Source: Sphingopyxis sp. 2PD | Lineage (GTDB): Bacteria > Pseudomonadota > Alphaproteobacteria > Sphingomonadales > Sphingomonadaceae | Length of the DNA: 64,000 nt | NCBI RefSeq assembly: GCF_005503695.1 | Contig: NZ_SCMU01000006.1 | Location: forward strand, 1-64,000 | Direction of reading: 5' to 3' | Made by a program: the position numbers and the translations under genes | Shown here: piece by piece, positions 4,026-35,777 of the stretch | Layout: every line of letters begins with the position of its first letter | Numbering within the stretch: the first letter of the stretch is position 1 | The notes under the pieces: generated by a model | Seen by the model: the letters and a program-made list of their open reading frames with translations, nothing else | The model's database searches: none | Told to the model about the DNA's origin: nothing

Positions 4026-4067
4026 CCCTATGCTATCTTTTCTCCAATTACGCGGCAATTTCCGTCA

Positions 4068-4088
4068 CGGTGATTGCCCGGTGATTGC
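4068..4088 (+). repeat. Direct repeats upstream of integrase
   Basis: Two identical decamers CGGTGATTGC start at 4068 and 4079, 11 bp apart, so they present on the same face of the helix. They lie about 30 bp before the integrase start. Such repeats often act as arm-type integrase or excisionase sites, but that is inference. Confidence 0.4.
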
Positions 4089-4116
4089 TGGAAACGCCGT
4101 ATTGGGAGACCCATTT

Positions 4117-5499
4117 ATGGCACGCGGAAAGATCACAAAACGCTCTATCGATGTTCTCATCGCAAGTAGCGAAAATGACATCCTCTGGGATGATAGCATA
4201 AGAGGCTTCGGCGCCAAGCGAACAAAATCGGGGGCCGTTTCATACGTCCTGCAATTTCGAATGGGCGGACGAGAATCAAAGACCCGCCGATATACGATCG
4301 GCAGTCACGGCTCGCCTTGGAGCCCAAGCACGGCGAGAGCCGAAGCGGAACGGCTGTTCATTCTAGTCGCCCAAGGCACGGATCCAGGAGAGGCGGAGCG
4401 GCAGCGCCGGCGTGAGGCGGTCGATCTGGCATTCGACAATTATGCCGATCGATTTGTCGACTCTTGCGTTGGCAAAGGTTGGAAGCGGCTCGCGGAGCAA
4501 GGCCTGAGACTCCATGTGAAGCCGGTGTTGGGCTCAAAGCCCCTGCCGCGGCTTGTTCGGTCCGATATTATTGCGGTGATGGACCGAATGCCGAGGGAGC
4601 AGATCGGCAATATCCGAAACGTCTTTGCAGTGATGCGCCGGCTCTTTCGCTGGGCGGTGGGCCGTGGGGACATCGACCGCAGCCCGATGGAAGGGATGGA
4701 GACTCCGCCTGCCGTTACCCCGCGCGACCGCTGGCTGTCGGACCAAGAGCTCGCCCGCGTTTGGCTCGCGGCGCCGCACACGCACCATTGCTTCGGCCCA
4801 ATCATTCGGCTGCTGATCGTCACTGGACAGCGACGAGAGGAAGTTTCGTCGCTCCGCTGGGAGGAAGTCGACCAAGTCGAACGTATGTGGACCTTGCCAA
4901 AGGAACGGGCAAAGAATGGCAAGTCGAACCAGATACCACTGAACGATCTGGCCGTAGCCGTTCTGGATCAGGTGGCTGGCGCAGCAAAATGGCCGCGTGC
5001 CGGGAAGCTGTTCGCGACGGCGCGCGGAGGCGCTTTCACGGGCTACAGCAAGGGCAAAGACAAGCTGGTTTTGCTCTTATCGCAGGACGGCGGCGAGCCT
5101 GTGCCCGACTGGCGTCTGCATGACCTGAGGCGCACGCTCGCAACAGGGTTTCAGAGGCTCGGGATTCGCTTCGAGGTTACCGAGGCTGTGCTGAACCATG
5201 TGGGAGGTTCGCGTGCGGGTGTAGCCGGAATATATCAGCGCCATGATTGGAAGGAAGAAAAGCAGGAAGCGCTAAAACTTTGGAATGATCATGTTTCCTC
5301 GGCCATCCAGGCAGCAACGAATGCCTTGCGAGCTTTTCCGCAGCCTGCTCCAGCTTCGGACCCGACGGACCGTCAAGATGCTCGCGCCAACGACGCATCG
5401 CGCAATGGCGAAATACAACGCCGAATGGTCTCTAACACCAGGAAGGTTGAAAAAGTGCCCGCCCGACGAGGACGCGGGCGGGCAGGAATGAAGGTCTAG
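4117..5499 (+). CDS. Tyrosine recombinase/integrase
   Basis: Site-specific recombinase of the island type. An N-terminal arm-binding DUF4102-like part (DILWDDSIRGFGAKRTKSGA) is followed by a SAM-like core-binding domain and the catalytic domain. Active-site residues are visible: Arg239 in TGQRREE, His335 and Arg338 in HDLRRTL, His361 in LNHVGG and the nucleophile Tyr373 in GIYQRHDW. I chose ATG 4117 because GGGAGA lies just upstream; an earlier ATG at 4030 has no such site and adds non-family residues. The last 60 or so residues after NDHVSSA are low-complexity and charged, unlike the family end. It probably mobilised the trb-bearing island that follows. Confidence 0.9.
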   Translation: MARGKITKRSIDVLIASSENDILWDDSIRGFGAKRTKSGAVSYVLQFRMGGRESKTRRYTIGSHGSPWSPSTARAEAERLFILVAQGTDPGEAERQRRREAVDLAFDNYADRFVDSCVGKGWKRLAEQGLRLHVKPVLGSKPLPRLVRSDIIAVMDRMPREQIGNIRNVFAVMRRLFRWAVGRGDIDRSPMEGMETPPAVTPRDRWLSDQELARVWLAAPHTHHCFGPIIRLLIVTGQRREEVSSLRWEEVDQVERMWTLPKERAKNGKSNQIPLNDLAVAVLDQVAGAAKWPRAGKLFATARGGAFTGYSKGKDKLVLLLSQDGGEPVPDWRLHDLRRTLATGFQRLGIRFEVTEAVLNHVGGSRAGVAGIYQRHDWKEEKQEALKLWNDHVSSAIQAATNALRAFPQPAPASDPTDRQDARANDASRNGEIQRRMVSNTRKVEKVPARRGRGRAGMKV

Positions 5500-5612: not shown

Positions 5613-5834
5613 TCAGCGCTGCCGCCGCGCACTCGCGAACCCGCGGTCAGCGGAAATGAAGCGCTCGATCATTGGGACCGCAATCTTCTCGGGCGCCAGC
5701 GGCTCGGCGAGGCCCGTGGCCTTCGCGTGGATCTCGGCATAGACAAGCAGATCGCGGTGCAGCCGTCCCGGAACCTCGATCGTCAATTTGACCGGCTTGT
5801 CATCGGCGATCGGTCCAAGGCGAAGCGCGCTCAT
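5613..5834 (-). CDS. DUF2274 protein (trb operon tail)
   Basis: Small 73-residue protein recognised as DUF2274 by the N-terminal MSALRLGPIADDKPVKLTIE and its fixed place directly after trbI in alphaproteobacterial conjugation operons. Its start overlaps the trbI stop by 4 bp (ATGA), so the two are translationally coupled. Function unknown; the compact fold and position suggest a conjugation accessory role. It converges with the integrase gene across about 110 bp. Confidence 0.75.
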   Translation of the reverse strand: MSALRLGPIADDKPVKLTIEVPGRLHRDLLVYAEIHAKATGLAEPLAPEKIAVPMIERFISADRGFASARRQR

Positions 5835-7039
5835 CCTTCGCTGCCCTTGTTCTCGAAGACGAGGTCGCGCGTCACGATGACGCGCAGCGTGTGGCCGGGG
5901 CGGATCGTGAGCGTAGGCGGCACCTTCATCTCGCGCTCCACGATCCGCTGACCCGCCTGGTTCACGCTGTCCTGCGCCCCGTCCCGGAGCGCCCGAAGGA
6001 GGGCGTCATCGCCGCCCGATCCCGTTTCGACACCGATGCCGAGCAAGGTCGATATCAGCGCGGCGCGCAAGACCCGACCCCAATGATGGTCGGTGCGATC
6101 GGCGAGGCCTGCCCGGCCCGACGCGTCGGCCCCTGGCTGGCGATCGAGCGCGAGCGAACGGCCGCCCGGAAGGATGAGCCTCTCCCAGACGAGCAGCACC
6201 CGGTTCTGCCCGTCAGCGATCTCGCTGTCATATTCGCCGATCAGCCGAGCACCCTGCGGGATCAGCAGGATGCGCCCGGTGGGGCTGTCATAGACATTCT
6301 GCGTCACCTGCGCCGTGACCTGCCCCGGGAGGTCGGAGCGGATGCCGGTGATGAGCGCGGCCGGAATCACACTGCCCGCCTGAACCACATTGGGCGACGA
6401 GGGCGCGACGATCCGCGCCGCGCTTTCCGTCGGCCGCGCACTGTCGCCACCGAGGAAATCCCTCCGCTTTCCGGCCAACGTTTGAACGGCTTGGGGATTG
6501 CCGGGCGCAGGTGGCAGTGCCGTATCGCCCAAGACCGGCACAGGCGATGGAAGAGATGCCCCGCCACCAAGAAATATCTGGCTGGCCCGAGCACTGTCGC
6601 GCTCCTGTGCTACCCTCGCGCGTGCCTGTTCGGCGGCAGCTGTCCGGGAGTCAGTATGCGGCGCGCCTATCGGGGGCATGGGTACCGCCTCGCCTTTCTC
6701 GCGCGCCGAGAGAATCGGTCTCCCGAGGTCGCCGGGGAGCGGGTCGCCGAGCTTTGGAATCTTGTCATAAGCACCCGGCGCACCGGTCACGAGTTCGGAC
6801 CGGTTTGCGCGATCGCTGTTATGGAGGTTTTCTGCTACCTTCGGTTCCGTCGACTGCAGCGCGTAGAGCAGCGCGCCGCCAATCGCGATGCCCGCGGTAC
6901 CGCCCATGATGGCAAGCGCCTTGCGAGAAAGACGCACGACCTTCGGAGGTTCAGCGCCGAGCCGGAAAGGTTCGGCACCGGAGGGGGGGGCTGCTGCGGG
7001 CCCCGTCACAATCGCATCGTCTCGTTCCGGCGCGCTCAT
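5831..7039 (-). CDS. trbI: Conjugal transfer protein TrbI (VirB10-like)
   Basis: Inner-membrane-anchored VirB10/TrbI component of a type IV secretion channel, joining inner and outer membrane complexes. The 402-residue product has one N-terminal membrane helix (about 43-63, LAIMGGTAGIAIGGALLYAL), a proline-rich periplasmic linker, and the C-terminal beta-barrel domain with VIPAALITGIRSDLPGQ, NVYDSPTGRILLIPQGARLIGEYDS and the closing LTIRPGHTLRVIVTRDL. It overlaps trbG by 4 bp upstream and the DUF2274 gene by 4 bp downstream. Confidence 0.93.
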   Translation of the reverse strand: MSAPERDDAIVTGPAAAPPSGAEPFRLGAEPPKVVRLSRKALAIMGGTAGIAIGGALLYALQSTEPKVAENLHNSDRANRSELVTGAPGAYDKIPKLGDPLPGDLGRPILSAREKGEAVPMPPIGAPHTDSRTAAAEQARARVAQERDSARASQIFLGGGASLPSPVPVLGDTALPPAPGNPQAVQTLAGKRRDFLGGDSARPTESAARIVAPSSPNVVQAGSVIPAALITGIRSDLPGQVTAQVTQNVYDSPTGRILLIPQGARLIGEYDSEIADGQNRVLLVWERLILPGGRSLALDRQPGADASGRAGLADRTDHHWGRVLRAALISTLLGIGVETGSGGDDALLRALRDGAQDSVNQAGQRIVEREMKVPPTLTIRPGHTLRVIVTRDLVFENKGSEG

Positions 7040-7887
7040 GAGCGGCCCCCGCCGCGCGAGGCGCGTTCGATGATCACCTTGCGCGCCGCGCGGCCGGCAC
7101 CCATCCGCAGTTCGCCGCGCTCGAACAGCCGGTCGACGATCATGTAGCGTCCCTGGACACGGTAGTTGAGAAGCTCCGCCTCTCCTTTCGCACCGGTGGC
7201 GAACAGCGGCGGCATCTCACCTGTCGCGATATCGTCGCCGAATTCCACGAAGGTCTGCCGTCCGTCGTCGAAGACCCTTACCGGGCGCCACCCGGGCTTG
7301 TCGCCAGAGAGCCGATAGCGAAAGTTGAGGGCGCCGAGGTCGAGCCCCGCCGCGACCGGGGCGGTCCGCTCGCGCTCTGCTTCGGCCATGCGCAGCGCGA
7401 TGAGCTCGGCTTCCGGATAGGACCAGGACACCGATGCCATATAAGTTGCGGGCGTTGCGCGCAGCTCGATATGATAGGTCCGCCTGCTCGTGTTGATGAC
7501 GATATTCGTCACGATGTCGGGCCGCGTTGGTTTCACGAGGATATGCACGCGGCGCGCGGAGCCGCTGCCGCTCACCGTGTCGCCGATGATCCAGCGCACC
7601 GTATCGCCGGCGGCAACGGGCCCCGGCCCGACGAGCTCCTCACCCTCCTGCAGCACGATATCGGTGACCTGCCCCGGCGATGCGTAAACCTGGTAGAGTG
7701 CCCCTTCGGCCCAGGCATATTTCTGGATAGCATTGAGGAAGGTGGCCCGCTCGGGCTGGACACGGGCGGCATCATTCGCGCGCCCGACATTCTGGCGCGG
7801 ATCGCGGCTTTCAGCGGCAAGCGAAGGCGACGCGAGACCAAGCAAGGCGGCGCCGGCGAGAAGAAATTCGGAGGAAACTGGCTTCAT
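7036..7887 (-). CDS. trbG: Conjugal transfer protein TrbG (VirB9-like)
   Basis: Outer-membrane-complex component of the conjugative type IV secretion channel. The 283-residue product starts with a signal peptide (MKPVSSEFLLAGAALLGLAS, cleavage likely after SLA-A). The VirB9 N-lobe follows (YAWAEGALYQVYASPGQVTDI, VKPTRPDIVTNIVI) and the C-lobe with LNFRYRLSGDKPGWRPVRVFDDG ends in YMIVDRLFERGELRMG. The ATG at 7887 overlaps the trbF stop by 4 bp; a longer in-frame extension into trbF is not needed. Confidence 0.93.
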   Translation of the reverse strand: MKPVSSEFLLAGAALLGLASPSLAAESRDPRQNVGRANDAARVQPERATFLNAIQKYAWAEGALYQVYASPGQVTDIVLQEGEELVGPGPVAAGDTVRWIIGDTVSGSGSARRVHILVKPTRPDIVTNIVINTSRRTYHIELRATPATYMASVSWSYPEAELIALRMAEAERERTAPVAAGLDLGALNFRYRLSGDKPGWRPVRVFDDGRQTFVEFGDDIATGEMPPLFATGAKGEAELLNYRVQGRYMIVDRLFERGELRMGAGRAARKVIIERASRGGGRS

Positions 7888-8567
7888 TGATTGAGCTCCT
7901 TGGACCATGAAATAGCGGACACAAAAACGCCAAGCGGATTGCGGCGCAGCGCGTCCGGGGTGCGCGGCGGTACATGGGTGACGGTGAGGATGGCGGACCA
8001 GCGCGATGTCTCGATCAGGCTGCCGTCCTGATAGCGGCGCTCGGTCCAAGCGATCCGAAAGCTGTTCTTCGAGGCGCGGATCACGCTCGACACATCGACC
8101 GCGACCTGGACCTTGCCGACCTCGGCGAAGGGGTCGTTATTGCGCGCATGGTCGTTGAGCGCCTGGGCGCCCGTCGCCGTGGTGAAATCATAGGCCGAAA
8201 GCCAGTCCTTGCGCAGCACGACCGGATCGGCGGGGATCGAGCGGACATGCTCGATGAAACGCGCGAGGTGAAAGGCGGTCTGCGGGTCAGTCGGCTTATA
8301 ATCCCCGTCCGCCGGGGCGACCGCGCGAGCCTCGCCGAGTTTGTCGACTTCGACCACCCAGGGCGTGATCGTACCGCGCGCCGAATGCCAGACGAGGCCG
8401 CAGGCGAGACCGCCCGAGAGGAGGAGCGAACCGAAAAAGGCGAGGCGCCAGTTCTTCGCCTGCACCCGCGCCGAACCGATGCGATCGTCCCAGACCTGCG
8501 CGGCGCGCTGATAGGGCGTGACGGGCTCCGGCGTGCGGCCATAATGATTGCTGGGTCTTCTGAACAT
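7884..8567 (-). CDS. trbF: Conjugal transfer protein TrbF (VirB8-like)
   Basis: VirB8-type inner-membrane scaffold of the mating-pair apparatus. The 227-residue product has a short cytoplasmic start, one membrane helix (about 45-62, LAFFGSLLLSGGLACGLVWH) and a periplasmic NTF2-like domain with TPWVVEVDKLGEA, DWLSAYDFTTATGAQALN and the motif FRIAWTERRYQDG. It starts 6 bp after the trbL stop and overlaps trbG by 4 bp. Confidence 0.92.
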   Translation of the reverse strand: MFRRPSNHYGRTPEPVTPYQRAAQVWDDRIGSARVQAKNWRLAFFGSLLLSGGLACGLVWHSARGTITPWVVEVDKLGEARAVAPADGDYKPTDPQTAFHLARFIEHVRSIPADPVVLRKDWLSAYDFTTATGAQALNDHARNNDPFAEVGKVQVAVDVSSVIRASKNSFRIAWTERRYQDGSLIETSRWSAILTVTHVPPRTPDALRRNPLGVFVSAISWSKELNQ

Positions 8568-8573
8568 GTTCGA

Positions 8574-9854
8574 TCAGTCCTTTTCGCTGATGTCGGGAGC
8601 CGAGGCGCCGCCGTGGCTGTCGCCGCCCTTGAGAGTATGGGCACCGATGGTCGCACCCTGCGTCATCACCTGGCGGCGGCGCATTGTGGCCGCCCATGCG
8701 GGAGGGCCGTCGGCAGGCCGGGAAGGCGCAGCGCTCTCGGCGGACCCGCTGCGCCCGGCCTCGAAGTCGGCCCGCAGCTTCTCTGCGGCGCGGCGGAGCG
8801 GCGATGCGGCGCCGCTGGCGGCACTGCGCGCGACATTGGCCAAGCCGGAACCGACCGCCCCTGCCCCGCTCTTCCCGGCCTCTCCCGCGGAATAGGCCGC
8901 CGAGGCGCTGCCGGCCCCGCGCGCGCTGGCTGAAGCGGCGCCGCGTGCCGCGGTGGCCACCGCGCCGCCGGCGAGCGTCGCGCCGGCCGCACCGGCGGCG
9001 AGCGTGGCGCCCGCCGCGACGGCGGTCCCTGCAGCCGCACCGGCGCCGAGCTGCGGCCCGCCCGCGACGATGCCGTTGGCGACGCTGGGGCCGAAGATAC
9101 CAAGGCCGAGAAGCGTCAGCGCGCCGAGCGCGATCGCCATTGCCTGTTCGATATCGGGTTCAGGGCCGACGCTGGCGTCGAGGAAGCGGTCGAACAAGGT
9201 CGTTCCGATGCCGGTGATGACCGCGAGCACGAGCAGCTTGATGCCCGAGGAAATGATATGACCGAGCACGCGCTCGGCCATGAAGGCCGTCCGCCCGAAG
9301 AAGGCGAAGGGGATGAGGACGAAGCCCGCGAGCGTCACGAGCTTGAACTCGAGGATCGTCACGAACACCTGCACCGCGAGGATGAAGAAGGCGAGCACGA
9401 CGATGATCCAGGCGACAAGCAAGATCAGTATCTGCATAAAATTGACGAACAGGCCGATCGGCCCCAACAAATCGGCCGATGCATCGAGCAGCGGCTCGGC
9501 GGCTTCGAGCCCGGTCGCCGCGACGAACCCCGGACGCATGAAGTCGCCGATCGCCATGGCGCCGCCGCTCGCTTTCAGGCCCAGCCCAGCGAAACTTTCG
9601 AGCATGATCGTCGCCAGGCTCTGGAAATTGCCGATGATGAAGGCAAAGACGCCGATATAGAGCGTCTTCTTGACGAGACGCTGGAGGACATCCTCGTCGG
9701 CGCCCCACGCCCAGAAGAGCGCCGCGATCGTTACGTCGATGACGATCAGCGTCGAGGACAAGAAGCCGACTTCACCTCCGAGCAGCCCGAAGCCGCTGTC
9801 GATATAGGTCGAGAAGACCGACAGGAATTGATCGATTACCCCGGTGTCGTTCAT
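8574..9854 (-). CDS. trbL: Conjugal transfer protein TrbL (VirB6-like)
   Basis: Polytopic inner-membrane component of the type IV secretion channel. The 426-residue product has an N-terminal MNDTGVIDQFLSVFSTYIDSG typical of TrbL, about six membrane helices up to residue 260, and a long Ala/Gly/Ser-rich C-terminal tail. The start was set at 9854 because the ATG overlaps the trbK stop (ATGA); an upstream in-frame extension lies within trbK. Confidence 0.92.
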   Translation of the reverse strand: MNDTGVIDQFLSVFSTYIDSGFGLLGGEVGFLSSTLIVIDVTIAALFWAWGADEDVLQRLVKKTLYIGVFAFIIGNFQSLATIMLESFAGLGLKASGGAMAIGDFMRPGFVAATGLEAAEPLLDASADLLGPIGLFVNFMQILILLVAWIIVVLAFFILAVQVFVTILEFKLVTLAGFVLIPFAFFGRTAFMAERVLGHIISSGIKLLVLAVITGIGTTLFDRFLDASVGPEPDIEQAMAIALGALTLLGLGIFGPSVANGIVAGGPQLGAGAAAGTAVAAGATLAAGAAGATLAGGAVATAARGAASASARGAGSASAAYSAGEAGKSGAGAVGSGLANVARSAASGAASPLRRAAEKLRADFEAGRSGSAESAAPSRPADGPPAWAATMRRRQVMTQGATIGAHTLKGGDSHGGASAPDISEKD

Positions 9855-10105
9855 TTTTCGTCCTTCTCTTGACCAAAGAAGTGGCGGCGCTTCGTTTCCC
9901 AAGCCGCCTCGCATTCGGGGTCCGCGACCGTGACGGTTCGGCAGCGGCGGAGCGTCTCGCCAAGCTCGGGCCCTGCATCCGCTCTGGAAATGTGACCAGA
10001 AACGGACGCACGCGGCGCGGGCGGGTCGACCGCCGCCAGAAGCGCAAGCGTCAGCGCCATGCCGCCCACGATCGCTCCGGCGACGAGCTTCCCCGCCCGG
10101 CCCAT
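9851..10105 (-). CDS. trbK: TrbK-like entry-exclusion protein
   Basis: Small 84-residue membrane or lipoprotein-like product between trbJ and trbL, matching the TrbK-alt entry-exclusion type by position and by the conserved C-terminal pattern LGETLRRCRTVTVADPECEAAWETKRRHFF. One hydrophobic helix lies at about 6-26. TrbK proteins reduce redundant transfer between donor cells. It begins 2 bases past the trbJ stop and overlaps the trbL start by 4 bp. Confidence 0.8.
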   Translation of the reverse strand: MGRAGKLVAGAIVGGMALTLALLAAVDPPAPRASVSGHISRADAGPELGETLRRCRTVTVADPECEAAWETKRRHFFGQEKDEK

Positions 10106-24184: not shown

Positions 24185-25715
24185 ATAACTCCTCTTGACC
24201 CATCCTCGGCAAGGTGAAGCTGAACTGTGCCCCGCCGCCAGGTGCCGGATCGACCCAAATCTTTCCGCCATGCGCTTCGATGATCGTGCGCGAGATCGAC
24301 AAGCCCACGCCCATACCGGTCCGCTTCGTGGTTATGAAGGGCTGAAACAATTGCGCCGCGACGGCCGGGGCAATGCCGGGGCCATTGTCGGTCACGGTGA
24401 CCCGGGCCATGTCACCATCGGCCTCGATCGCTATCGTCAGCTTGCGGTCCCCGGCAGCCGTTTCGGCAAAGGCGTCGACCGCGTTGCGGACGAGGTTCAG
24501 CACCACCTGCTGTATCTGTACCTTGTCCACGAGCACCAGATCGACGGCGGTATCGAAGGCGAAGCGAATGCGAATATCATGTTCGCGCGCGCCGACCAGC
24601 GCAAGCGCGCTCGCTTCTTCGACCAGCTTGGGCAGGCTTTCGACGGCGCGCTCGGTTTCGCCGCGCGCGACGAAATCGCGCAGCCGCCGGATGATGTCGC
24701 CCGCGCGTAGCGCTTCCGCGGCCGCTTTTTCGACGGCGTCGGCCAAGCGATCGTGCGGGACATCGTCGCGCGCAAGCAGCATCCTGCTGCCCCTGAGATA
24801 GTTGGCGACCGCCGACAGCGGCTGGTTGATCTCGTGCGCCAGCGCCGATGCCATCTCGCCCAGACTGGTAAGGCGGGAGACGTGGACCAGTTCGTTCTGC
24901 AGTTCCTGCAATCGCACCTCGGCCTCCTGACGTTCGGTGAGGTCGCGAATGAAACCGGTGAAGAAGCGCTCGCCGCCGGCTCGCATCTCCCCGACCGATA
25001 ATTCGATCGGGAAGGTCGATCCGTCGCGCCGTTCGCCGACGACCACCCGACCGGTTCCGATGATCCGCTTCTCGCCGGTCCGGTAATAACGATCGAGATA
25101 ATCGTCATGCGCGGCGCGATAGGGCTCGGGCATCAGCATCCGGACATTCTTGCCCACCGCCTCTTCTGCCCGCCAGCCGAACATGCGTGTCGCCGCCGGA
25201 CTGAAATCGCGGATCGCTCCCGCCTCGTCGATCACAACCATGGCGTCGGGGACGGTTTCGAGGATCGAACGCAAATGAGCCTCGCGTCCCGCCAGCGCCG
25301 CGGCTCCCTCCTCGGTTTCGACGCGGGCGTGTTGGAACCACTCGCCGCCCAGCGAGATCGCGAGCGAGATCACAAAGAAGGATCCGGCGGCGATCAGGCT
25401 GCCGCCCTCGACGGGTCCGATGCGGCTGTCGCACCATAGGCCGGCGGCCGCCCCAGCAAGCGCGGCGAGCGTGCCCGCGCGCAGCCCGGAAAGCGCGCCC
25501 GCGACCACGACCCCCGGCACGAAAAAGATGAAGGTCGCGCGCTGACCAAGCTCGGCCGCGAATAGGAGGCGAACCGCCATGCCGGCCGCGACGAAAAGCA
25601 GGGCGATGCCAAAGGCGGCCAATACCGGAAGGCGCGGAAGAAAGCGGCTCGTCAGGCGGGCACGGCGGACCTCCGGTAAATCCCTTAGGGGAGATACGGT
25701 AGGGACATCATCCAA
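24171..25715 (-). CDS. fixL: Oxygen-sensing histidine kinase FixL
   Basis: Membrane-anchored haem-PAS sensor kinase. Several helices at the N-terminus ([20 protein letters not shown] onward) precede a PAS domain with the proximal haem ligand His about 203 in [20 protein letters not shown] and the heme-side Arg in IIGTGRV. The phospho-acceptor is His about 294 in [13 protein letters not shown], followed by N, G1 and G2 boxes ([30 protein letters not shown]). I prefer the TTG at 25715 since its numbering matches Bradyrhizobium FixL within a few residues. The ATG at 25814 would overlap the divergent oxidase start. Confidence 0.9.
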
Positions 25716-25797
25716 ATTTCCGTGCTCCTCGTTCAGGCCTATTTCGTCTCCATCGACGGCATCTATGAACCCCTGCCGCCGGAACGGAGATGTTCCA

Positions 25798-26487
25798 ATG
25801 ACTGCACCTTTCATCGATCTCAGCGTCCATCACAACCCCAAGGGCATGTCCGATCGCGTCGCTTATGGCTTCACCAAGGTCCTGCGCTGGTGCGCCGACA
25901 CCTTTTTCGCCGAGCGTTACGGCCACCGCGCTGTCGTTCTCGAAACGGTTGCCGCGGTTCCGGGGATGGTCGGCGCAACGATCAACCATCTCGCATGCCT
26001 GCGCCGCATGTGCGACGACAAGGGCTGGATCAAGACGCTCATGGACGAGGCCGAGAATGAGCGCATGCACCTGATGACCTTCATCGAGATCTCGAAGCCG
26101 ACGCTCTTCGAGCGGGCCGTGATCATCGGGGTGCAGTGGGTGTTCTATGTCTGCTTCTTCGCGCTCTACCTGATCAGTTCCAAGACTGCGCACCGCGTCG
26201 TGGGCTATTTCGAGGAAGAGGCGGTGATCAGCTACACGCATTATCTCGCCGAGATCGACGAAGGCCGCAGCGCCAATGTGCCGGCACCGAAAATCGCGAA
26301 GGACTATTGGGGCCTCCCCGCCGATGCGACGCTACGCGATGTCGTCCTGGTGGTTCGCGCCGACGAAGCGCACCACCGCGACGTCAACCACGGCTTCGCC
26401 AACGAGCTTGCCGGCCTGCCCGTCGGCCCGGTGGCCGAGTGCCCGCCGCACGTGACGCTGGAACCCAACTGGAAGAAGGCTGCCTGA
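25798..26487 (+). CDS. aox: Alternative oxidase
   Basis: Di-iron quinol oxidase, 229 residues, reducing oxygen to water without proton pumping and known to resist cyanide and NO. The four-helix-bundle ligands are seen: Glu in [10 protein letters not shown], ExxH in ENERMHL, Glu in [13 protein letters not shown] and ExxH in [15 protein letters not shown] precedes the ATG at 25798. It is divergent from fixLJ and followed by a receiver-like gene and a globin gene, which suggests induction under low oxygen or NO stress. Confidence 0.95.
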
Positions 26488-26515
26488 CCGCGGCTCCGGG
26501 CAACGGAGGAAGGAC

Positions 26516-26860
26516 ATGGACCACCCTGTGATACTCTTCGCGAGCGATCCTGCCCTTCTTTCCGCACTCCGGTTTTCGCTGACGCTCGAAGGGTTCGACG
26601 TTCGCGGCGACGCCGAACGCCCCACAAGCCGAATGTGCCTGGTCATCGACCAGGGTTTTCGCGGCGACGGACTGGCATGGCTCGCCAGCCTCCGCGCGGA
26701 GGGGAACGCGTCGCCGGCCATTCTGCTTGTGACGCACCCTGACCGCACCCTCCGCGCCTCCGCCGCGGCGCTCGGCGCCCGGCTGATCGAAAAGCCGCTG
26801 ACGGGCGACGAACTGACGGACGCCCTGACCGATATCCTGACCTATCATCCCGCCGCCTGA
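26516..26860 (+). CDS. Degenerate receiver-domain protein
   Basis: A single receiver-like domain of 114 residues. The expected phospho-acceptor Asp appears in CLVIDQGFRG, the Thr in LLVTHPD and the conserved Lys-Pro in LIEKPL, but the N-terminal acidic pair is reduced to FASDPAL, so metal binding and phosphorylation may be weak. It has no output domain. Lying between the alternative oxidase and globin genes, it may act as a phosphate sink or partner of FixL. Confidence 0.7.
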   Translation: MDHPVILFASDPALLSALRFSLTLEGFDVRGDAERPTSRMCLVIDQGFRGDGLAWLASLRAEGNASPAILLVTHPDRTLRASAAALGARLIEKPLTGDELTDALTDILTYHPAA

Positions 26861-26895
26861 CAGCCGCGGCACCAATCGAGACAAAGGAACACAGC

Positions 26896-27345
26896 ATGCG
26901 CACCGCCTCTCCCCATGCCATGACCATCGTCAAATCGACCGCGCCGGCACTTGAGAAGCATGGCGTCGAGATCACTACCGCCATGTACGCGCGGCTCTTT
27001 CGGGATCCCGCCATCGAGGCCCTGTTCGACAAGGCCGCGCAGAGCAGCGGCGAGCAGCCGCGACGGCTTGCCGGTGCGATCCTTGCCTACGCCCGCAACA
27101 TCGACAAGCTCGCGAACCTTGGCCCGGCCGTCTCGCGAATGGTCGCGCGCCATGTCGAAACCGGCGTCAAGGCCGAGCATTATCCCTATGTCGCCGAAGC
27201 CTTGCTTCCTGCGATCCGCGATGTACTCGGCCCCGATGTCGCGACCGACGAGGTGCTGGCGGCCTGGGGCGAAGCCTATTGGATGCTCGCCGACATTCTC
27301 ATCGCCGCAGAGGCGCAAGCCTATGAAGACGCCGTGGCGGCCTGA
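26896..27345 (+). CDS. Single-domain globin (NO-detoxifying type)
   Basis: The 149-residue globin is of the Vitreoscilla/flavohaemoglobin class: proximal His86 in ARHVETGVKAEHYPYVAEALL, TyrB10 region TTAMYARLF, and the C-terminal LAAWGEAYWMLADILI. No reductase domain is attached, so it needs an external reductase if it acts as an NO dioxygenase. It is 35 bp downstream of the receiver-like gene and is followed immediately by a broken truncated-haemoglobin gene. Confidence 0.9.
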   Translation: MRTASPHAMTIVKSTAPALEKHGVEITTAMYARLFRDPAIEALFDKAAQSSGEQPRRLAGAILAYARNIDKLANLGPAVSRMVARHVETGVKAEHYPYVAEALLPAIRDVLGPDVATDEVLAAWGEAYWMLADILIAAEAQAYEDAVAA

Positions 27346-27346
27346 T

Positions 27347-27538
27347 ATGGAAGACAGGATGAGACTTGAGCTCTCGGAGCAGGACCTCACGAAACTCGTT
27401 CCGGAATTTTACGCGCGCGTCAGGGCCGATCCGGTTCTGGGTCCAATTTTCGATGGCGCAATCGACGACTGGGACGAGCATATTGAAAAGTTGCAGGCCT
27501 TCTGGTCGTCCGTCATGCTCACGAGCGGGCGGTATAGA
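27347..27538 (+). pseudogene. Group III truncated haemoglobin, 5' part only
   Basis: The N-terminal 64 residues match class III truncated haemoglobins: LVPEFYARVRADPVLGPIFDGAI, then DDWDEHIEKLQAFWSSVMLTSGRY. After that the frame runs into the antisense end of the lasso cyclase gene and loses family similarity, so the haem-binding F-helix region is gone. The ATG at 27347 overlaps the region just after the globin stop, indicating it was once the last gene of the oxidase-globin operon. Confidence 0.8.
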
Positions 27539-28859
27539 GCTCGATGCTCTTTTGGGTTCGCATCAGATAGGCTGCATGAACGGTCTTTCCGGGCAGAATG
27601 TCACGCGGCGGCCGGAGCCAAGGGTGCGTGGCCCCGGCGGCCCGTGCCACCCTCGCGGCGTCCGGCTGCAGCCCCGCTGCGTTGAACCGGATCTGATGCC
27701 GTCCCCCGTGGCGGCGATGGCGATCCCAGGCATGGCGCAGGACCGTGCGTCGGTCGGCGCCGGTCAGCAGGCATATGTCGCGCAGCGTGGTTCCGAGCCG
27801 TGCGGACGGGCCCTCCGCCAGGACGCGATCGAGAAGGGGAATGGTGCTCCGCAGGCTGCACAGAACAGCGTCGCCGCCATTGCCGGTAAAATAAGCATCT
27901 ACCGGCATTTCTCTGGCTAACCGTTCGTGGATCGCCTCGTTCGTCTGGCGCCCGATCGGCACGATCGGCCAGGGATGATTGGGCGCGGAGGCGCGGCCGA
28001 CGTCGATATCGCCAATTTCGCGCTGCACTTCGCGAATATTGAGCCCGAGATGCGTCGCCATGGCCAGCGCATATCGTCGTTCGTCGCCATCGGCATCGGG
28101 CCCGAACAGGGTCAGACACGTCAGCCCGCGCGCGGCAGGTGCGGCGCCGGCGGCGACGATCGATGAGTCGAGACCTCCGGATACGCCCAGCAATATCGAC
28201 GAGAAGCAGCGCGACCATGTCCCCGCGACCCCGCAAACGATGTTGCGCAGGTCCTCAGCGAAAGTCTCGAAGTCCTTGTTCGCGCGCGGCGTGACATGGT
28301 CCCATGGGGTCCACCAGCTCTCGAGTGCCACCTTGCCATCGGCAACGGCAAGGCATTCGCCGGCTATCAGTTCCTCGATCCCCTCGATACATGTGCGACG
28401 CCCGCGCGCGTCGCCGCTTGAAAGCACGCGCGCGACTTCGCCCAAATCGACGGCGCCGGAACCCGGCGAAGCGAGTTCCGTGATATCGCCGGCGATGCTT
28501 ATTCCGTCGGCCTCCCGTTTTACGTAGCAGGGCAGCGCGCCGGACGGGTCCCGGAATATCGTCACCGCCCCGTTCCGGCCGATATGAACAAAAACATAGC
28601 CGCCCCAAAAATCCGTCAGCAGCTTTCGTCCTTTTTCGGCCGTGAGGACTTGGCCGGGGCACTCAATGGCAGGCGGCACCGCGCTAAATTTTTCGAACAG
28701 GCGACCAATGATGATGCTCCGCGCATCCACGTGCTGCAGCGGCTCGCGCGACCAAACCGCCACATTTCCGCAACTGAAATCAGCCGCACCGCGAGCTTGC
28801 GAGCGACGACGCAAACCATCCTCTGCGAAAGCGATCTCGATGCGAAATCCACCGGTCAT
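27519..28859 (-). CDS. Lasso-peptide cyclase, C-terminally truncated
   Basis: Asparagine-synthetase-like macrolactam synthetase (lasso C protein) that adenylates a ring Asp/Glu. The N-terminal glutaminase-like half is followed by the ATP-binding LLGVSGGLDSSIVAAGAA and a synthetase domain with YFTGNGGDAVLC. It ends at 446 residues after HPWLRPPRDILPGKTVHAAY, LMRTQKSIEL, where such cyclases normally continue for over 100 residues. The cut coincides with the broken haemoglobin gene. The ATG at 28859 overlaps the protease stop by one base. Probably non-functional. Confidence 0.85.
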   Translation of the reverse strand: MTGGFRIEIAFAEDGLRRRSQARGAADFSCGNVAVWSREPLQHVDARSIIIGRLFEKFSAVPPAIECPGQVLTAEKGRKLLTDFWGGYVFVHIGRNGAVTIFRDPSGALPCYVKREADGISIAGDITELASPGSGAVDLGEVARVLSSGDARGRRTCIEGIEELIAGECLAVADGKVALESWWTPWDHVTPRANKDFETFAEDLRNIVCGVAGTWSRCFSSILLGVSGGLDSSIVAAGAAPAARGLTCLTLFGPDADGDERRYALAMATHLGLNIREVQREIGDIDVGRASAPNHPWPIVPIGRQTNEAIHERLAREMPVDAYFTGNGGDAVLCSLRSTIPLLDRVLAEGPSARLGTTLRDICLLTGADRRTVLRHAWDRHRRHGGRHQIRFNAAGLQPDAARVARAAGATHPWLRPPRDILPGKTVHAAYLMRTQKSIELYTARS

Positions 28860-29509
28860 CAGACCGCCAAGATCGGCTTGTAGCGAAGGATGACATCGAG
28901 CGGGTCGGTCAGCACCGCTTCGCCAGCCTGAACCCAGCAATGGGCAGCAAAGGGCAATGTCACGCCAAAGACAAGACGGGCGTCGCACCTCGCGCGCGCA
29001 AGGATCCGGCGCATCGCAATGCCCCGCTCGAGGCACCGATCCGTGGCAAGCGCGTAACGCCGGGCACGGTGAAACGCGGCGGCGACACGAATATAGGTCT
29101 CTTGCCGACTCTCGGGAGAATGTTTTTCGAGGCGCTCACCCATCCGCCGCGTGATCTCGAAAACCGGAATACGGCCAATGTCAAAGCGCGCTCGCCTTTG
29201 GGCCGCAATCGCCCTGAGGGTATCGAGCCAAGGCGTATCGGGGAGAGGCTGGTCGATGAGGCTCGCTGTGACGGCCGGCGGCAGGGGCAGATTCCCGATA
29301 GCCAATCCGCCAGCGGGACCGATGAGCTGCTGATCAAGCAGAACAGCCTGTTCGTCGTCGCTGGCGCGCTGGTCGAGGAAATGCGCAAAAGCTTGCGACG
29401 TCCGCCCCTGGATCAGGAAATAGCGGCCAGCAGGCAAGTCCAGAAACACATATTCGCTTTCGAAGCGGCAAAAGTGCAGCCCTGGCCGGATGTCGTAAGA
29501 TGGGTCCAT
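28859..29509 (-). CDS. Lasso-peptide leader peptidase with RRE domain
   Basis: Fused B protein of 216 residues. Residues 1-70 are PqqD/RRE-like and should bind the precursor leader. The C-terminal part is the transglutaminase-like cysteine protease with Cys159 (TDRCLERG), His190 (FAAHCWVQAG) and Asp202 (LTDPLDVIL), with the same spacing as McjB. Start ATG 29509; a longer frame would run across the hairpin and into the precursor gene. It lies 56 bp after the precursor gene and directly upstream of the cyclase. Confidence 0.9.
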   Translation of the reverse strand: MDPSYDIRPGLHFCRFESEYVFLDLPAGRYFLIQGRTSQAFAHFLDQRASDDEQAVLLDQQLIGPAGGLAIGNLPLPPAVTASLIDQPLPDTPWLDTLRAIAAQRRARFDIGRIPVFEITRRMGERLEKHSPESRQETYIRVAAAFHRARRYALATDRCLERGIAMRRILARARCDARLVFGVTLPFAAHCWVQAGEAVLTDPLDVILRYKPILAV

Positions 29510-29531
29510 GCGATGGCTGTGCCAGAGGTAC

Positions 29532-29554
29532 GGCGCGCCGCAGCGCGGCGCGCC
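29532..29554 (-). other. Hairpin between lasso precursor and protease genes
   Basis: Perfect 10-bp arms GGCGCGCCGC / GCGGCGCGCC with a 3-base loop, 10 bp after the precursor stop and 22 bp before the protease start. No T-run follows. Such hairpins in lasso clusters are thought to keep the precursor transcript more abundant than the enzyme transcripts. Confidence 0.65.
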
Positions 29555-29564
29555 GCCCTGAGGG

Positions 29565-29705
29565 TCAGTCTTCAGCGGTGATGCCGCCGACGAGCAGGAA
29601 GTGCTCGTTGGTATCTTCATCGCGGGGACCGACCGGTTCGATGCCTCGGGTCTCGACGCCGACGGCGCCGAGGTCGATCAGGTCACTGCTGTCCTGCTGT
29701 TTCAT
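29565..29705 (-). CDS. Lasso-peptide precursor (sphingopyxin I-like)
   Basis: Tiny 46-residue gene. The leader is MKQQDSSDLIDLGAVGVETR with Thr at the required position -2. The core has 26 residues: it begins GIEPVGPRD (Gly1, Asp9, so a nine-residue macrolactam ring Gly1-Asp9 is expected), continues EDTNEHFLLV and ends GGITAED. Bulky His/Phe/Leu near 15-18 could be the plugs. The core closely resembles sphingopyxin I as I remember it. GGAAGGAAG precedes the ATG. Protease and cyclase genes follow on the same strand, but the cyclase is cut off. Confidence 0.88.
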   Translation of the reverse strand: MKQQDSSDLIDLGAVGVETRGIEPVGPRDEDTNEHFLLVGGITAED

Positions 29706-30137
29706 CACATCTTCCTTCCGAAATCGCGACCGAAATGAGTCGCACTTGGGAAGTTATGCCTCGGAAATTCCGGCCGCTATTTAATAATCTGAAAATAATC
29801 GAGCATCGTTTTCAAAAAAAGAGTGACCGCGCAAAGGAAACGCACATCGGGGCACGAACCGCTACCTTTAGCTTGCGCCTGGACATACGTAGCGGAACCC
29901 GGTCACACGCCTGCAAATGTGGCGTGACCGCGATCATGCGTTTGATCGGGAGATGTGCAACTCCAACTGGCACCGGAACTGGATGTATCTTTGCCGCACA
30001 GGGTTACGTACAAACGCCGAGGCGCGCATCGAACCTCGGTCCCGAAAACGCCTCTGCGATCATCAAAGGAAGCATGATTTCGGCACAGGCCCGTTTTGAC
30101 AACGGCCAGTTGCGCGCGTCCTTTCTGACTACCGACG
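29706..30137. other. Intergenic region upstream of the lasso operon
   Basis: About 430 bp without a supported gene. The part next to 29705 is AT-richer and should hold the minus-strand lasso promoter. The rest looks like eroded sequence leading to a dehydrogenase remnant. I see no clear RNA gene or operator. Confidence 0.5.
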
Positions 30138-30320
30138 ATGGCAAAGAACGCAGTGCTGCCGTCCATCATCGGTACGCCGGCGAACCGGGCGGACATGCCG
30201 GATGCTGACCTGAGCGACTGGATTTCGCCCCAGGCGGCCGCTCGCGTCGTCGCCTTTCTGCTTTCAGACGAGGCGGCGAGCATTACCGGAGCCCAGCTCA
30301 AACTCTCCATGGGGCAATGA
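30138..30320 (+). pseudogene. Short-chain dehydrogenase, C-terminal remnant
   Basis: About 60 codons encode the end of an SDR: NAVLPSIIGTPANRADMP, then a stretch ending FLLSDEAASITGAQLKLSMGQ. The Rossmann and catalytic parts are absent and nothing upstream continues them. It is debris from an earlier rearrangement, near the lasso cluster that is itself broken. Confidence 0.65.
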
Positions 30321-30413
30321 GCCAATCGCACGGCGGTGTGCCGGTTTGGCCGGCGCAGCGGCGCGATCAAGCCGCATCGATCTTGCCGGGAGTGCGAGCC
30401 TTGCGCGGCAAGG

Positions 30414-30515
30414 TCAGAGCTTGGCGGCGATCGTCATCAAAATGGCGCCCCAAACGAGGAAGGTGACGGCGTAAACCGCAATACAGTCAGCCTCTTGGCG
30501 CAGTCTGGCGCGCAT
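30414..30515 (-). CDS. 33-residue single-helix membrane protein
   Basis: Small gene with GGAGAGAAG 4 bases before the ATG. The product starts with a basic, charged MRARLRQEADC and then forms one hydrophobic helix, YAVTFLVWGAILMTIAAKL. The GC-rich stem CCTTGC/GCAAGG (30399-30413) follows the stop. It lies about 115 bp downstream of the CoA-transferase gene on the same strand. Function unknown. Confidence 0.55.
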   Translation of the reverse strand: MRARLRQEADCIAVYAVTFLVWGAILMTIAAKL

Positions 30516-30630
30516 GATCTTCTCTCCTGCTCCTTGCCCCGCCCTTGTTTCGGGCGGTGGCTTCACACAATGCCGTCATCGCGCGGAATCTGGCTTCGGA
30601 TGCGGGATTCGAGGCCCGCACCAAAAGCGG

Positions 30631-31803
30631 TCATCCGGAGATGGATCGGCGGATTTCTTCGCTCTGTTCGCCTATCGCCGGGGCGACCTTGCCGGCTCCT
30701 CCCAGCGATACGCCAAAGCGGACAGGATGCCCCATCCGGAAGCACCGTCCTTCGGTGGGATGCTCATAGGCTTCGAAGAAGCCGGTGGCGGCAAGATGCG
30801 GATCATTCATGATGTCGGCGAGGTCACGGACAGGCTGAGCCGGGATTTGCGCGGCATGGCAGCGCGCAACGAGGTCGGCGGTCGTGAAGCCTGGCGTCAA
30901 CCTTGCTATTTCGCGGTAAAGGAGCGGGAGATTGCGCCCCCGCGCCTTGCGGGTTGCGAACGCGTCCTGATCGAGGAAGCCCGGATTGCCAAGCAGTTCG
31001 AATATCCGCGACCAGCTTTCGTCGGTGTAAGCGACGATGCTCACGTAGCCGTCGGAGGTCGGGAAAGGCTGGCGATCGGGATCGATCTGGCGAAAATAGC
31101 CAACCGGAGCATTGGGAGGGTCGAAGGCCAGACCGCCGAGATGCTCAAGCAGCATGAAATTGGTGAAGACCTCGAACATCGGAATTTCAACGAGCTGACC
31201 CTCGCCAGTCCGCATGTGATGGATAATGGCGGCGAGCACCGCGTGCGCCCCATGAAGACCGGCGACCTTGTCGGCGATCAGCGAGGGCAGATAGCGCGCG
31301 CGCGGATCGCCATCGACGCGGGGGAGAAGCGTTGCCGTCCCCGACGCTGCCTGGATGACGTCGTCATAGGCCTGTAGATCGGCATAGGGGCCATCCTGAC
31401 CGAAGCCGACGCAATGCGCATAAATGATATCGGGCTTGATCGCCTTTACCGCTTCATAGTCCAAGCCGAGACGTTCGGCGGCTTTGCCCCTGACATTGAG
31501 AACGAACACATCCGCATCCGACAGAAGCTTCTTCATCGTCTCGAGGTCGGCAGCGGTCTTGAGATCGAGGGCGATCGATTGCTTGCTGCCGTTGATTGCC
31601 ATGAAAGCAGGCGCCATGCCGTGGGTCGCGGCCGCCTTGCCCGACCAGCGAAAAGAGTCCCCGCTTCCCGGCACTTCGACCTTGATGACGTCGGCGCCGA
31701 GCTCAGCGAGAATATGGGTGCAATAGGGTCCGAAGACGACGGTTGTGAGATCGACGACCTTCAAGCCCGTAAGCATCGCCTTGCCGTCCGCCATTCCCAT
31801 CAT
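30631..31803 (-). CDS. CaiB/BaiF-family CoA-transferase
   Basis: Family III CoA-transferase of 390 residues that moves CoA between carboxylic acids. The N-terminal LKVVDLTTVVFGPYCTHILAELGADVIKVE and the catalytic Asp in QAYDDVIQA are typical; HPVRFGVSLGGAG ends the C-terminal part. It has its own TetR-type palindrome 38 bp upstream (31841-31858), so it belongs to the regulon of this region. Starts at 31794 or 31800 are also possible. Confidence 0.9.
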   Translation of the reverse strand: MMGMADGKAMLTGLKVVDLTTVVFGPYCTHILAELGADVIKVEVPGSGDSFRWSGKAAATHGMAPAFMAINGSKQSIALDLKTAADLETMKKLLSDADVFVLNVRGKAAERLGLDYEAVKAIKPDIIYAHCVGFGQDGPYADLQAYDDVIQAASGTATLLPRVDGDPRARYLPSLIADKVAGLHGAHAVLAAIIHHMRTGEGQLVEIPMFEVFTNFMLLEHLGGLAFDPPNAPVGYFRQIDPDRQPFPTSDGYVSIVAYTDESWSRIFELLGNPGFLDQDAFATRKARGRNLPLLYREIARLTPGFTTADLVARCHAAQIPAQPVRDLADIMNDPHLAATGFFEAYEHPTEGRCFRMGHPVRFGVSLGGAGKVAPAIGEQSEEIRRSISG

Positions 31804-31840
31804 ATGCTATTCTCGCTGCCATACCGTAAAGTCACAGCAT

Positions 31841-31858
31841 TTTAATTACCCAATTAAT
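31841..31858. promoter_or_regulatory. TetR-type palindrome 1 (CoA-transferase)
   Basis: TTTAATTACCCAATTAAT, 14 of the 16 specified positions of ATTAATTG-NN-CAATTAAT, 38 bp upstream of the CoA-transferase start. Confidence 0.65.
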
Positions 31859-31937
31859 GATGCGCGATCAAGCTGAACCGTCGCGCCTCCCGGCGTGACA
31901 TGCGCCGAAACATGACGGCACGGAGCGCGACCGACGC

Positions 31938-33095
31938 TCAGCGAGCGGAGTCGATGGCGCGCCAGACCAGATTCTTCTGAATTTCCGTGGTCCCCCCGTA
32001 GATCGTTTGCGCGCGCTCGAAGAAATAGGAAGCCGTGGCGACCGCGGCAAACTCGGGAATGAGCGGCGTCGCCTCATGCCAGTCGGAACGAGAGCGATCG
32101 AAAAAGGGCGCCGCATGCTCCCCTGCCCGGTCGATATACAGCTCGGTGATCAACTGCGCGGCCTGCGTGCAACCGATCTTCAGACTTGCGACGGTGGCCG
32201 CATCGCTTCCATGCACAAGCGCCTTCAGAACCTGCTGTTCGAGCACCATCACCGTAAATTCTGCATCGGCAAGCCGCCGGGCGAAGGCGCGGTCGCCCGC
32301 GACCATCGTGCGGAGGGTCGCAAGGTCGCGCTTCTTGCGGCCAACATGCGCGTAAGAGAGGCGCTCATTCTTGAGAAGGACGTTTGCATAATGCCACGCG
32401 CGCCCCTCCTCCCCGATGCGGTTTGCGGCGGGAACACGGACGTCGGTAAAGAAGACCTGGTTCAGCTCATGCGCGCCATCGATCGAAACGATCGGCCGCA
32501 CGCTGATGCCTTCGCAATTCATCGGGGCGCAGATGAGCGATATGCCGTCCTGCTTTCTTTCTTCGTGCGAAGTCCGGCAGAGGCAGAAAATCCAGTCCGC
32601 GATGTGGGCGCCGCTTGTCCATATCTTGGAGCCATTCAGAATATAATCGTCGCCATCGCGTACCGCCGAAAAGGCGAGACTGGCGAGGTCGGACCCCGCG
32701 TCGGGTTCCGAATAGCCTTGCGCCCAGAAGGAGCGCGACGAGAGGATGTCGGGCAGCCAGCGCTGCTGTTGTTCGGGCGTGCCGAACGCACAGATGATCG
32801 GCCCGATATAGATGAGGCCCATCGGAATCAGGTTCGGCGCGCCCGCCAGCTCCATTTCCTCTTCGAACAGATAGCGTTCGACCGGCGTCCATCCCGTGCC
32901 TCCGAACTCGCGGGGCCAGCTGGCAGCCAACCAGCCACGGGCCTGGAGCGCCTGCTGTGCGGCTTCATAATCCTGACGGCGGAGAAACTGACCGGTGCGA
33001 ACCTTGTTCAGGACAGAAGGCGGGAACTCGGTTTCGAAGAAGCGGCGAACCTCGGCCTGGAACGCCCTGTCGGCGCGGCTGAACTGCAGGTCCAT
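31938..33095 (-). CDS. Acyl-CoA dehydrogenase
   Basis: FAD-dependent enzyme of 385 residues that makes the alpha-beta double bond in an acyl-CoA. Seen are PREFGGTGWTPVERYLFEEE, the FAD/substrate stretch WAQGYSEPDAGSDLASL, ILNGSKIWTSGAH and the C-terminal IYGGTTEIQKNLVWRAI. The long-loop type resembles steroid and branched-chain acyl-CoA dehydrogenases. AGGAGAGTGAGG precedes the ATG, and a regulon palindrome lies 42 bp upstream. It stands alone between the CoA-transferase and the TetR gene. Confidence 0.92.
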   Translation of the reverse strand: MDLQFSRADRAFQAEVRRFFETEFPPSVLNKVRTGQFLRRQDYEAAQQALQARGWLAASWPREFGGTGWTPVERYLFEEEMELAGAPNLIPMGLIYIGPIICAFGTPEQQQRWLPDILSSRSFWAQGYSEPDAGSDLASLAFSAVRDGDDYILNGSKIWTSGAHIADWIFCLCRTSHEERKQDGISLICAPMNCEGISVRPIVSIDGAHELNQVFFTDVRVPAANRIGEEGRAWHYANVLLKNERLSYAHVGRKKRDLATLRTMVAGDRAFARRLADAEFTVMVLEQQVLKALVHGSDAATVASLKIGCTQAAQLITELYIDRAGEHAAPFFDRSRSDWHEATPLIPEFAAVATASYFFERAQTIYGGTTEIQKNLVWRAIDSAR

Positions 33096-33136
33096 GGCCT
33101 CACTCTCCTCACTTTTTCAATTGCGATGGACCATCA

Positions 33137-33154
33137 ATTAATCGCATAGATAAT
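33137..33154. promoter_or_regulatory. TetR-type palindrome 2 (acyl-CoA dehydrogenase)
   Basis: ATTAATCGCATAGATAAT, 12 of 16 consensus positions, 42 bp upstream of the acyl-CoA dehydrogenase start at 33095. Confidence 0.55.
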
Positions 33155-33264
33155 TTCAGGCAAGCGTCGCGCAGGCCATCTATATCTGGCGAACGCTGTG
33201 GAGGTTATCGCCTGGACCGGCTGGCAAATAGGACCAGCGCCGCCGCCACAGGGCGTGGGAATAT

Positions 33265-33282
33265 ATTGTTCAATCAATTAAT
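33265..33282. promoter_or_regulatory. TetR-type palindrome 3 (tetR)
   Basis: ATTGTTCAATCAATTAAT, 12 of 16 consensus positions with one perfect half-site CAATTAAT, 88 bp upstream of the TetR gene; suggests autoregulation. Confidence 0.55.
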
Positions 33283-33369
33283 TTACGCCATATCCGAACG
33301 GCTAGCCGCAAGCTGCGGCGGGCCGATTGCAGGGGATGGTCGTGCCGGGACGACCACAGGGAGTGACGA

Positions 33370-34017
33370 ATGAAGGTGCAGATCGAGGCGGAAGGCGGTT
33401 CGTCGACAGCGGAGTCTCGCGAGCGACTGCTGGAAGCGGCGGGACAATTGATGGCCGAGCGGGGTACGACCGATATTTCGTTGAGCGAAATTGCTGCGCG
33501 GAGCGGGGTCAATTCTGCGCTGGTCAAATATTATTTCGGCAACAAGGCGGGCATGCTGATGGCGCTGCTTCGCCGCCGGCTGGGTCAGGGAATGGCGGAC
33601 CTGCAGCAGCTGCTGAAAATGGATATTTCGCCGCAGGACAAGTTGCGCATCCACATCAGCGGCATGGTCAACACCTATTATCAATATCCCTATGTCAACC
33701 GGCTGATGCACGAGCTGGCCAACGAGCCGTCGGGCGATTATGGCAAGCAGATCGCCGAGGAAATCAGCCTGCCGGTCGCCAAGGCGCAGCGCGCGATTCT
33801 GGAAGAAGGCCGGGCCAAGGGCATCTTCCGCGAGGTCGATCCTCTGGTCTTCTATTTCATGATCGTCGGGGCCTGCGACCAGCTGTTCCATTCACGCCAC
33901 CAGGCGCGACATGTGTTCGGCCTTGAGGAGATCAACGACGATCTCAAACGCCGCTACGTATCGGAGCTCTGCAACAACCTTATCAGGGGAATCTCGGCCG
34001 ACCCGCGCGCGAACTGA
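33370..34017 (+). CDS. TetR-family transcriptional regulator
   Basis: The 215-residue regulator has the N-terminal helix-turn-helix RERLLEAAGQLMAERGTTDI, then SEIAARSGVNSALVKYYFGN, and a helical ligand-binding domain (IHISGMVNTYYQYPYVNRLM, FYFMIVGACDQLFHSR). It is the only TetR gene in the window, and the palindromes spread over 30.6-60.1 kb are the natural candidates for its operators. The ligand is likely an acyl-CoA or other pathway intermediate. Confidence 0.9.
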   Translation: MKVQIEAEGGSSTAESRERLLEAAGQLMAERGTTDISLSEIAARSGVNSALVKYYFGNKAGMLMALLRRRLGQGMADLQQLLKMDISPQDKLRIHISGMVNTYYQYPYVNRLMHELANEPSGDYGKQIAEEISLPVAKAQRAILEEGRAKGIFREVDPLVFYFMIVGACDQLFHSRHQARHVFGLEEINDDLKRRYVSELCNNLIRGISADPRAN

Positions 34018-34144
34018 CGGCGCGCCGCCCCGGTTGAGCTGCGCGGGAAGGACGCAAGGCGCCGCGGCCCAGGCGTGGCGCCTCCAGCCGCAGCCGCACG
34101 ATTCTGCCCCCTCGCGCCGAGACCGACGCCAAGCTCCGCTGGAC

Positions 34145-35560: not shown

Positions 35561-35602
35561 CCGGATTTTCTCCCATCAGGTGGCCGCAAACAATTGGCTC
35601 TA

Positions 35603-35742: not shown

Positions 35743-35777
35743 TCTGGATCGGACCAACTTCTTGCAAGGATGCTTTC

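Follow-up and report, generated by a model that had tools for sequence, protein, structure and literature searches.

The 64,000 nucleotides of Sphingopyxis sp. 2PD analysed here (contig NZ_SCMU01000006.1, hereafter the window) very probably carry an intact precursor gene for an isopeptidase-type lasso peptide akin to sphingopyxin I, left behind in a gene cluster that became inactive when about 53 kb were recently deleted. The peptide appears to be a new one, closely related to the known sphingopyxin I, and its local cluster is broken.

The precursor gene and its biosynthetic neighbours

The precursor gene A occupies positions 29565..29705 of the minus strand, with its ATG at 29705 and its stop codon at 29567-29565, and comprises 46 codons and the stop. 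It encodes a 20-residue leader, MKQQDSSDLIDLGAVGVETR (29646-29705, minus strand), that ends in Thr-Arg, followed by a 26-residue core, GIEPVGPRDEDTNEHFLLVGGITAED (29568-29645, minus strand), with Gly1 and Asp9. A ribosome binding site, GGAAGGAAG, is found at 29711..29719 on the same strand. A preliminary description made from the letters had proposed a gene of 46 codons preceded by a ribosome site, whose leader closes with Thr-Arg and whose core has Gly1 and Asp9; we recover all of these on the minus strand. The plus-strand reading of 29565-29705 translates to an unrelated frame and was rejected.

Lasso precursors are characterized by a Thr at position -2 of the leader, a Gly at position 1 of the core and an acidic residue at positions 7-9. 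The window precursor has the leader, the Thr, the Gly and the acidic residue. It is matched by the Pfam model Subterisin (PF24178; E-value 5.4e-8, 33.2 bits for a cut-off of 27), whereas its score with the NCBIfam model benenodin (NF033522) is 30.3, below the cut-off of 33. Of 13 related precursor genes (the window and genome G013 counted among them), 11 are preceded by the nine-base site GGAAGGAAG and all 13 by the motif AAGGAA. A stem-loop at 29526..29559 (minus strand, z -3.95) separates A from B, and a comparable GC-rich stem was found in each of the 11 loci folded, two of which have one and the same sequence.

The preliminary description had also placed protease and cyclase genes downstream of the precursor. 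Both are present and the protease is intact, but the cyclase ends after residue 442 of 570. The B protein (28859..29509, minus strand, 216 aa) is a Transglut_core3 leader peptidase whose N-terminal part is a putative recognition element; the open reading frame listed for it begins further upstream, at 29620. It scores 68 bits with lasso_biosyn_B2, over the cut-off of 33, and a search of PDB sequences returned a single meaningless match (E-value 0.095). The precursor is therefore adjoined by its peptidase, as is expected of the class, the recognition element remaining putative. The asparagine-synthetase-like cyclase C (27519..28859, minus strand) has 446 codons where three loci that are otherwise near-identical have 570: it is homologous to residues 1-442 and then continues for four foreign residues. 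The complete cyclase that characterizes the class is thus absent from the window and present at full length in genomes G013, G015 and G078.

The 128 lost residues include 27 of the 54 nearly invariant positions in an alignment of 37 cyclases, among them K499, which probably corresponds to the catalytic lysine of beta-lactam synthetase. The 20 fully invariant positions all lie in the part that was kept, the cut row itself barring positions of the lost part from that list. The truncated protein is far below the NCBIfam cyclase cut-offs (53.7 for 300 and 16.1 for 525), and the cut cyclase is presumably dead. The AF2 model of the full-length C (mean pLDDT 92.5) is predicted to have the fold of asparagine-synthetase-like enzymes: the best Foldseek match was TsnB9 (7ylz, 3e-18), along with beta-lactam synthetase (1mc1, 2e-16) and asparagine synthetase B (1ct9, 3e-15), with TM-scores of about 0.5-0.65. 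A search of PDB sequences with C gave only weak matches to NAD and GMP synthetases.

A probable deletion and the complete clusters of relatives

Near the end of the cyclase frame lies a junction at 27534..27536, where a comparison with genome G015 reveals a 3-base overlap (ATA). Positions 12498-27536 of the window are 100.00% identical to one stretch of G015 and positions 27525-64000 are 99.98% identical to another. Between both ends, G015 has 53,062 further bases, which together with the 3 bases shared at the join make 53,065 bases absent from the window. Judging from this alignment, the recent loss of about 53 kb appears to have cut the window cyclase. We favour a deletion in the window over an insertion in G015 because most relatives have a cyclase of full length: 14 of the 18 loci of the window core type and 85 of the 89 other loci. 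At the opposite border of the lasso segment, positions 30146..30320 (plus strand) hold a 3' gene remnant. The whole gene is present in locus L048 (221 aa, a putative short-chain dehydrogenase) and in G028. The remnant marks an older join beyond the cluster, common to G013, G015 and G078.

Along with the 3' part of the cyclase, the genes for the isopeptidase, the TonB receptor, FecR and the sigma factor disappeared. The set that characterizes the sphingopyxin I type, i.e. an S9 isopeptidase, a TonB receptor, FecR and a sigma factor alongside the precursor, is missing from the window; the three near-identical loci with a complete cluster have it. When the lost genes were sought across the whole genome, the best matches were distant and each covered only a part (27% identity for the isopeptidase, 39% for the receptor, 32% for the sigma factor), and FecR had no match at E 0.001 in a search run without a positive control. 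Since the cluster is broken, this bacterium probably does not make the peptide, which relatives that have all the genes should produce.

The identical precursor was found in loci L037, L038, L039 and L059, of which L037 and L059 are one contig. Precursor and protease (100% identical B) thereby occur with a complete cluster in three other Sphingopyxis genomes, G013, G015 and G078, the latter being Sphingopyxis witflariensis DSM 14551 (L059). In these, a C of 570 aa is followed by the isopeptidase, the TonB receptor, FecR and an ECF sigma factor (families run on L038); the best PDB match of the L038 isopeptidase is 5JRK, with 1084 bits. More broadly, 32 of the 80 Sphingopyxis genomes searched, the one with the window among them, match the precursor profile at E <= 0.001; many of these matches are weaker and belong to other core types. 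In a sample of 397 genomes of the family, 8 match at E <= 1e-5, and four of the 8 belong to the genus itself. PMC6771000 reports three lasso regions identified by antiSMASH in S. lindanitolerans; G013 gives three B matches, and the complete cluster may already be among those regions.

In the review PMC9266682, the biochemistry of the class is described as B cutting the leader, C closing the ring and the isopeptidase reopening threaded peptides. By analogy, leader cutting, ring closure and reopening can be predicted for the window peptide. In the complete copies, the B protein would bind the leader and cut after Thr-Arg, and C would join Gly1 to Asp9, giving a nine-residue ring with a 17-residue tail and a calculated mass of 2761.32. 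The isopeptidase would later reopen the lasso, and the TonB-dependent receptor with the sigma/FecR pair may serve uptake or sensing. In the window, the ring-closing step is left without a complete enzyme.

The peptide could still be matured if another cyclase closed the ring in trans after the window B had cut the leader. The cyclase profile matches one other full-length lasso-type cyclase in this genome, besides two weaker partial matches. It belongs to a second lasso cluster (L003 965-3585, contig G000:C18) with a precursor of core GSNENIAPDGVQPRQPLGIVVD, a B protein and a full-length cyclase of 592 aa. This core also starts with Gly1 and has Asp9, and both precursors pass one Pfam model, which leaves cyclisation in trans conceivable. 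We nevertheless consider it quite unlikely, as the B proteins of the two clusters share 28% identity and the cyclases 31%, and beyond Gly1, Asp9 and some further positions the cores are unlike. The same contig has an isopeptidase-like frame at its end, a putative GntR-type gene upstream and a putative TraG-like conjugation protein at 8905-12645.

We regard it as slightly less probable still that the cut is an artefact of assembly and that the real genome has a complete cluster. The genome is a draft of 53 contigs and the four truncated loci of the window core type all come from draft assemblies, but so do many complete loci. Moreover, up to the join the two flanks are 100.00% and 99.98% identical to G015, only 3 bases are common to them, so that there is no repeat to mislead the assembler, and a search of the 53 contigs found no near-identical copy of the isopeptidase or the receptor. 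As for the precursor, short frames are common (196 of at least 30 aa overlap 22000-40000), and a 46-codon frame might be open by chance or encode a non-lasso peptide. The profile match, the conserved relatives adjoining B genes in many loci and the conserved ribosome site and stem-loop make this extremely improbable. Hence, we retain the intact precursor in a cluster broken by a deletion as the preferred reading.

Comparison with sphingopyxin I and other lasso systems

The isopeptidase of the cluster in genome G001 (locus L046) matches PDB entry 5JRK over residues 2-731, and the two are alike in the printed alignment except for the first few residues. We take 5JRK to be the sphingopyxin I isopeptidase, which agrees with a title cited in the literature, and we take the L046 cluster, on the strength of this match, as that of sphingopyxin I. 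Its core is GIEPLGPVDEDQGEHYLFAGGITADD. Aligned with the window core it requires no gap, and 18 of 26 positions are common. The differences named in the preliminary description (Val5, Arg8, Thr12 and Asn13) are correct, and there are four more: Phe16, Leu18, Val19 and Glu25. Both cores have 26 residues with Gly1 and Asp9, and the A-B-C order, isopeptidase, receptor, FecR and sigma factor are as in the complete copies of the window cluster. Apart from the eight core substitutions, the clusters differ in B (40% identical), in C (53%) and in the broken state of the window's. The profile, the leader and core motifs, the neighbouring genes and the direct core comparison together support the initial proposal of a sphingopyxin I-like lasso precursor. 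Four core strings gave no hit in the PMC full texts searched, and as one was the sphingopyxin I core itself, the miss says little.

Among the loci compared, the nearest cores are those of Sphingobium xenophagum NBRC 107872 (L060) and of the MAG BC.033 (L061). Their core, GIEPVGPRDEDTNEHYLFVGGITAED, has 24 of 26 residues in common with that of the window, from which it differs by Tyr16 and Phe18; their B proteins are 58-59% identical to the window's. The cyclase of L060 is truncated too, whereas L061 has a full C and an isopeptidase, its receptor running off the contig. PMC11006600 describes sphingocin of Sphingomonas BPH, likewise encoded by a lasso cluster with an isopeptidase and a TonB receptor. 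Its core as given there, GPGFINNDGVGGKLPFAGLSDD, has little in common with the window core beyond Gly1. According to the same paper, an insertion in B of the sphingocin cluster led to the loss of phenanthrene use.

In some pairs, the core is kept far more strictly than the enzymes. The cores of G001 and G028 are alike at 25 of 26 residues (dN 0.02, dS 0.91), with 47% identity in B and 53% in C, and the window and S. xenophagum share 24 of 26 core residues with 59% identity in B. The pair formed by the window and G001 is less striking (69% in the core, 40% in B). These estimates are rough, since dS in B often approaches or exceeds saturation and the cores have 26 residues. Comparing core and B identity by bands is also partly circular, the group having been chosen by its core, and distinct cores outside the window core type likewise reach 100% when B identity is at least 75%.

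The role of isopeptidase-type lasso peptides is called enigmatic in PMC9266682, which also reports that the sphingopyxin I isopeptidase opens its own lasso only, among 24 tried. The near-constant core of some pairs, the diverging enzymes and the mobile region shared across species provide natural material on this role, and complete and cut copies differ by single recent events. The new core of the sphingopyxin I kind also offers a ready-made test of specificity, given that reported for the isopeptidase (PMC9266682). The source for such work is a species with the complete cluster, not the window genome.

A second precursor gene, with its own ribosome site and the core GLEPVGPVEEDTGSRYIPFAGIGEYD, lies between the cyclase and the isopeptidase of the sphingopyxin I-type cluster in 4 genomes (L046 7779-7919, minus strand; L045 12294, plus strand; L155 11572, minus strand; L154 12350, minus strand). 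Three copies are alike, and the version of G031 has diverged (dN 0.22, dS 0.41). The Subterisin score of this precursor, 26.2, is just below the cut-off of 27. No such gene was found in L038.

Recurrent cyclase cuts and mobile surroundings

The window is not the only locus of its core type with a cut cyclase. In reference positions, the cuts are at 442 in the window, 307 in G046, 219 in S. xenophagum L060 and 189 in G028. Precursor and protease genes remain open in all four. We found no isopeptidase or receptor in the DNA examined of these clusters (for G046 and G028, the stretch around the locus), the L060 contig of 4,538 bases being too short to show their absence. Up to its cut, G046 agrees with the complete cluster of G031 at 99.9% identity over 2,320 bases, so this cut, too, happened recently.

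Whether cuts are commoner in the window core type depends on the counting, and the comparison is post hoc. Record by record, 4 of 18 cyclases are cut in this type and 4 of 89 in others (p 0.026), the count starting from 122 loci and leaving out 12 judged duplicates, the C18 cluster, and L097 and L130, whose cyclase runs off the contig. Removal of one further duplicate gives 4/18 and 4/88 (p 0.027). With one vote per distinct B protein, the figures are 4/11 and 3/76 when any cut copy suffices (p 0.004), and 2/11 and 3/76 when all copies have to be cut (p 0.12). The cases outside the window core type are L120 and L122, two strains with one B protein and a cyclase unmatched by tblastn; L092, which resembles a frameshift; and L166, a B-C fusion close to a contig end. 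In L166, from about 5984 to 7000 (G045:C4), B runs straight into the C-terminal part of the cyclase: here a different lasso cluster has undergone an internal deletion.

Because all four cut clusters keep open precursor and protease genes, they might not be simply dead and could release a linear core, perhaps read by neighbours carrying the receptor. The linear core is the molecule that the isopeptidase makes from the lasso, and such a use would fit a core kept far more strictly than its enzymes. We nonetheless give this idea little credence. That the truncated copies are cheats, which kept uptake and lost synthesis, is unsupported, the receptor and the isopeptidase being missing as well.

The cluster lies in an island with a tyrosine integrase (4030..5499, plus strand) and conjugation genes (5831..9914, minus strand), namely TrbI (5831-7039) and TrbL (8574-9914). 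G013, G015, G019, G028 and G078 match stretches of the window at 99.1-100% identity, with the exception of the G019 stretch over 23498-27536 (95.8%). As a control for the backbone, a 20-kb stretch of another contig was compared with seven genomes and gave 81-88% identity in blocks of at least 2 kb, the longest blocks having 81-83%. The region being mostly at 99-100%, it was exchanged recently between species. In G028 (Sphingopyxis sp. H053, L065), these flanks surround another lasso cluster, which has the core GIEPLGPVDEDQGEHYLFAGGITVDD and a cyclase that is also cut.

A plasmid home for the precursor was rejected, as none of 72,556 plasmid records matched it at E 0.01. Positions 22000-34700 do match 8 plasmids, only in the regulator/kinase/oxidase part (about 23585-26494) and at 76-79%. 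No known structured RNA or tRNA was found in the window at Rfam gathering scores or by ARAGORN. Beside the junction, positions 23561-27390 hold a FixJ-like regulator (name from plasmid annotation), a PAS histidine kinase, an alternative oxidase and a globin; the regulator/kinase/oxidase set is 76% identical on plasmids of Sphingobium and other sphingomonads. The moved region also includes, at 17481-23488, a gene of the levansucrase/invertase family, a TonB receptor and then a putative LacI-type regulator.
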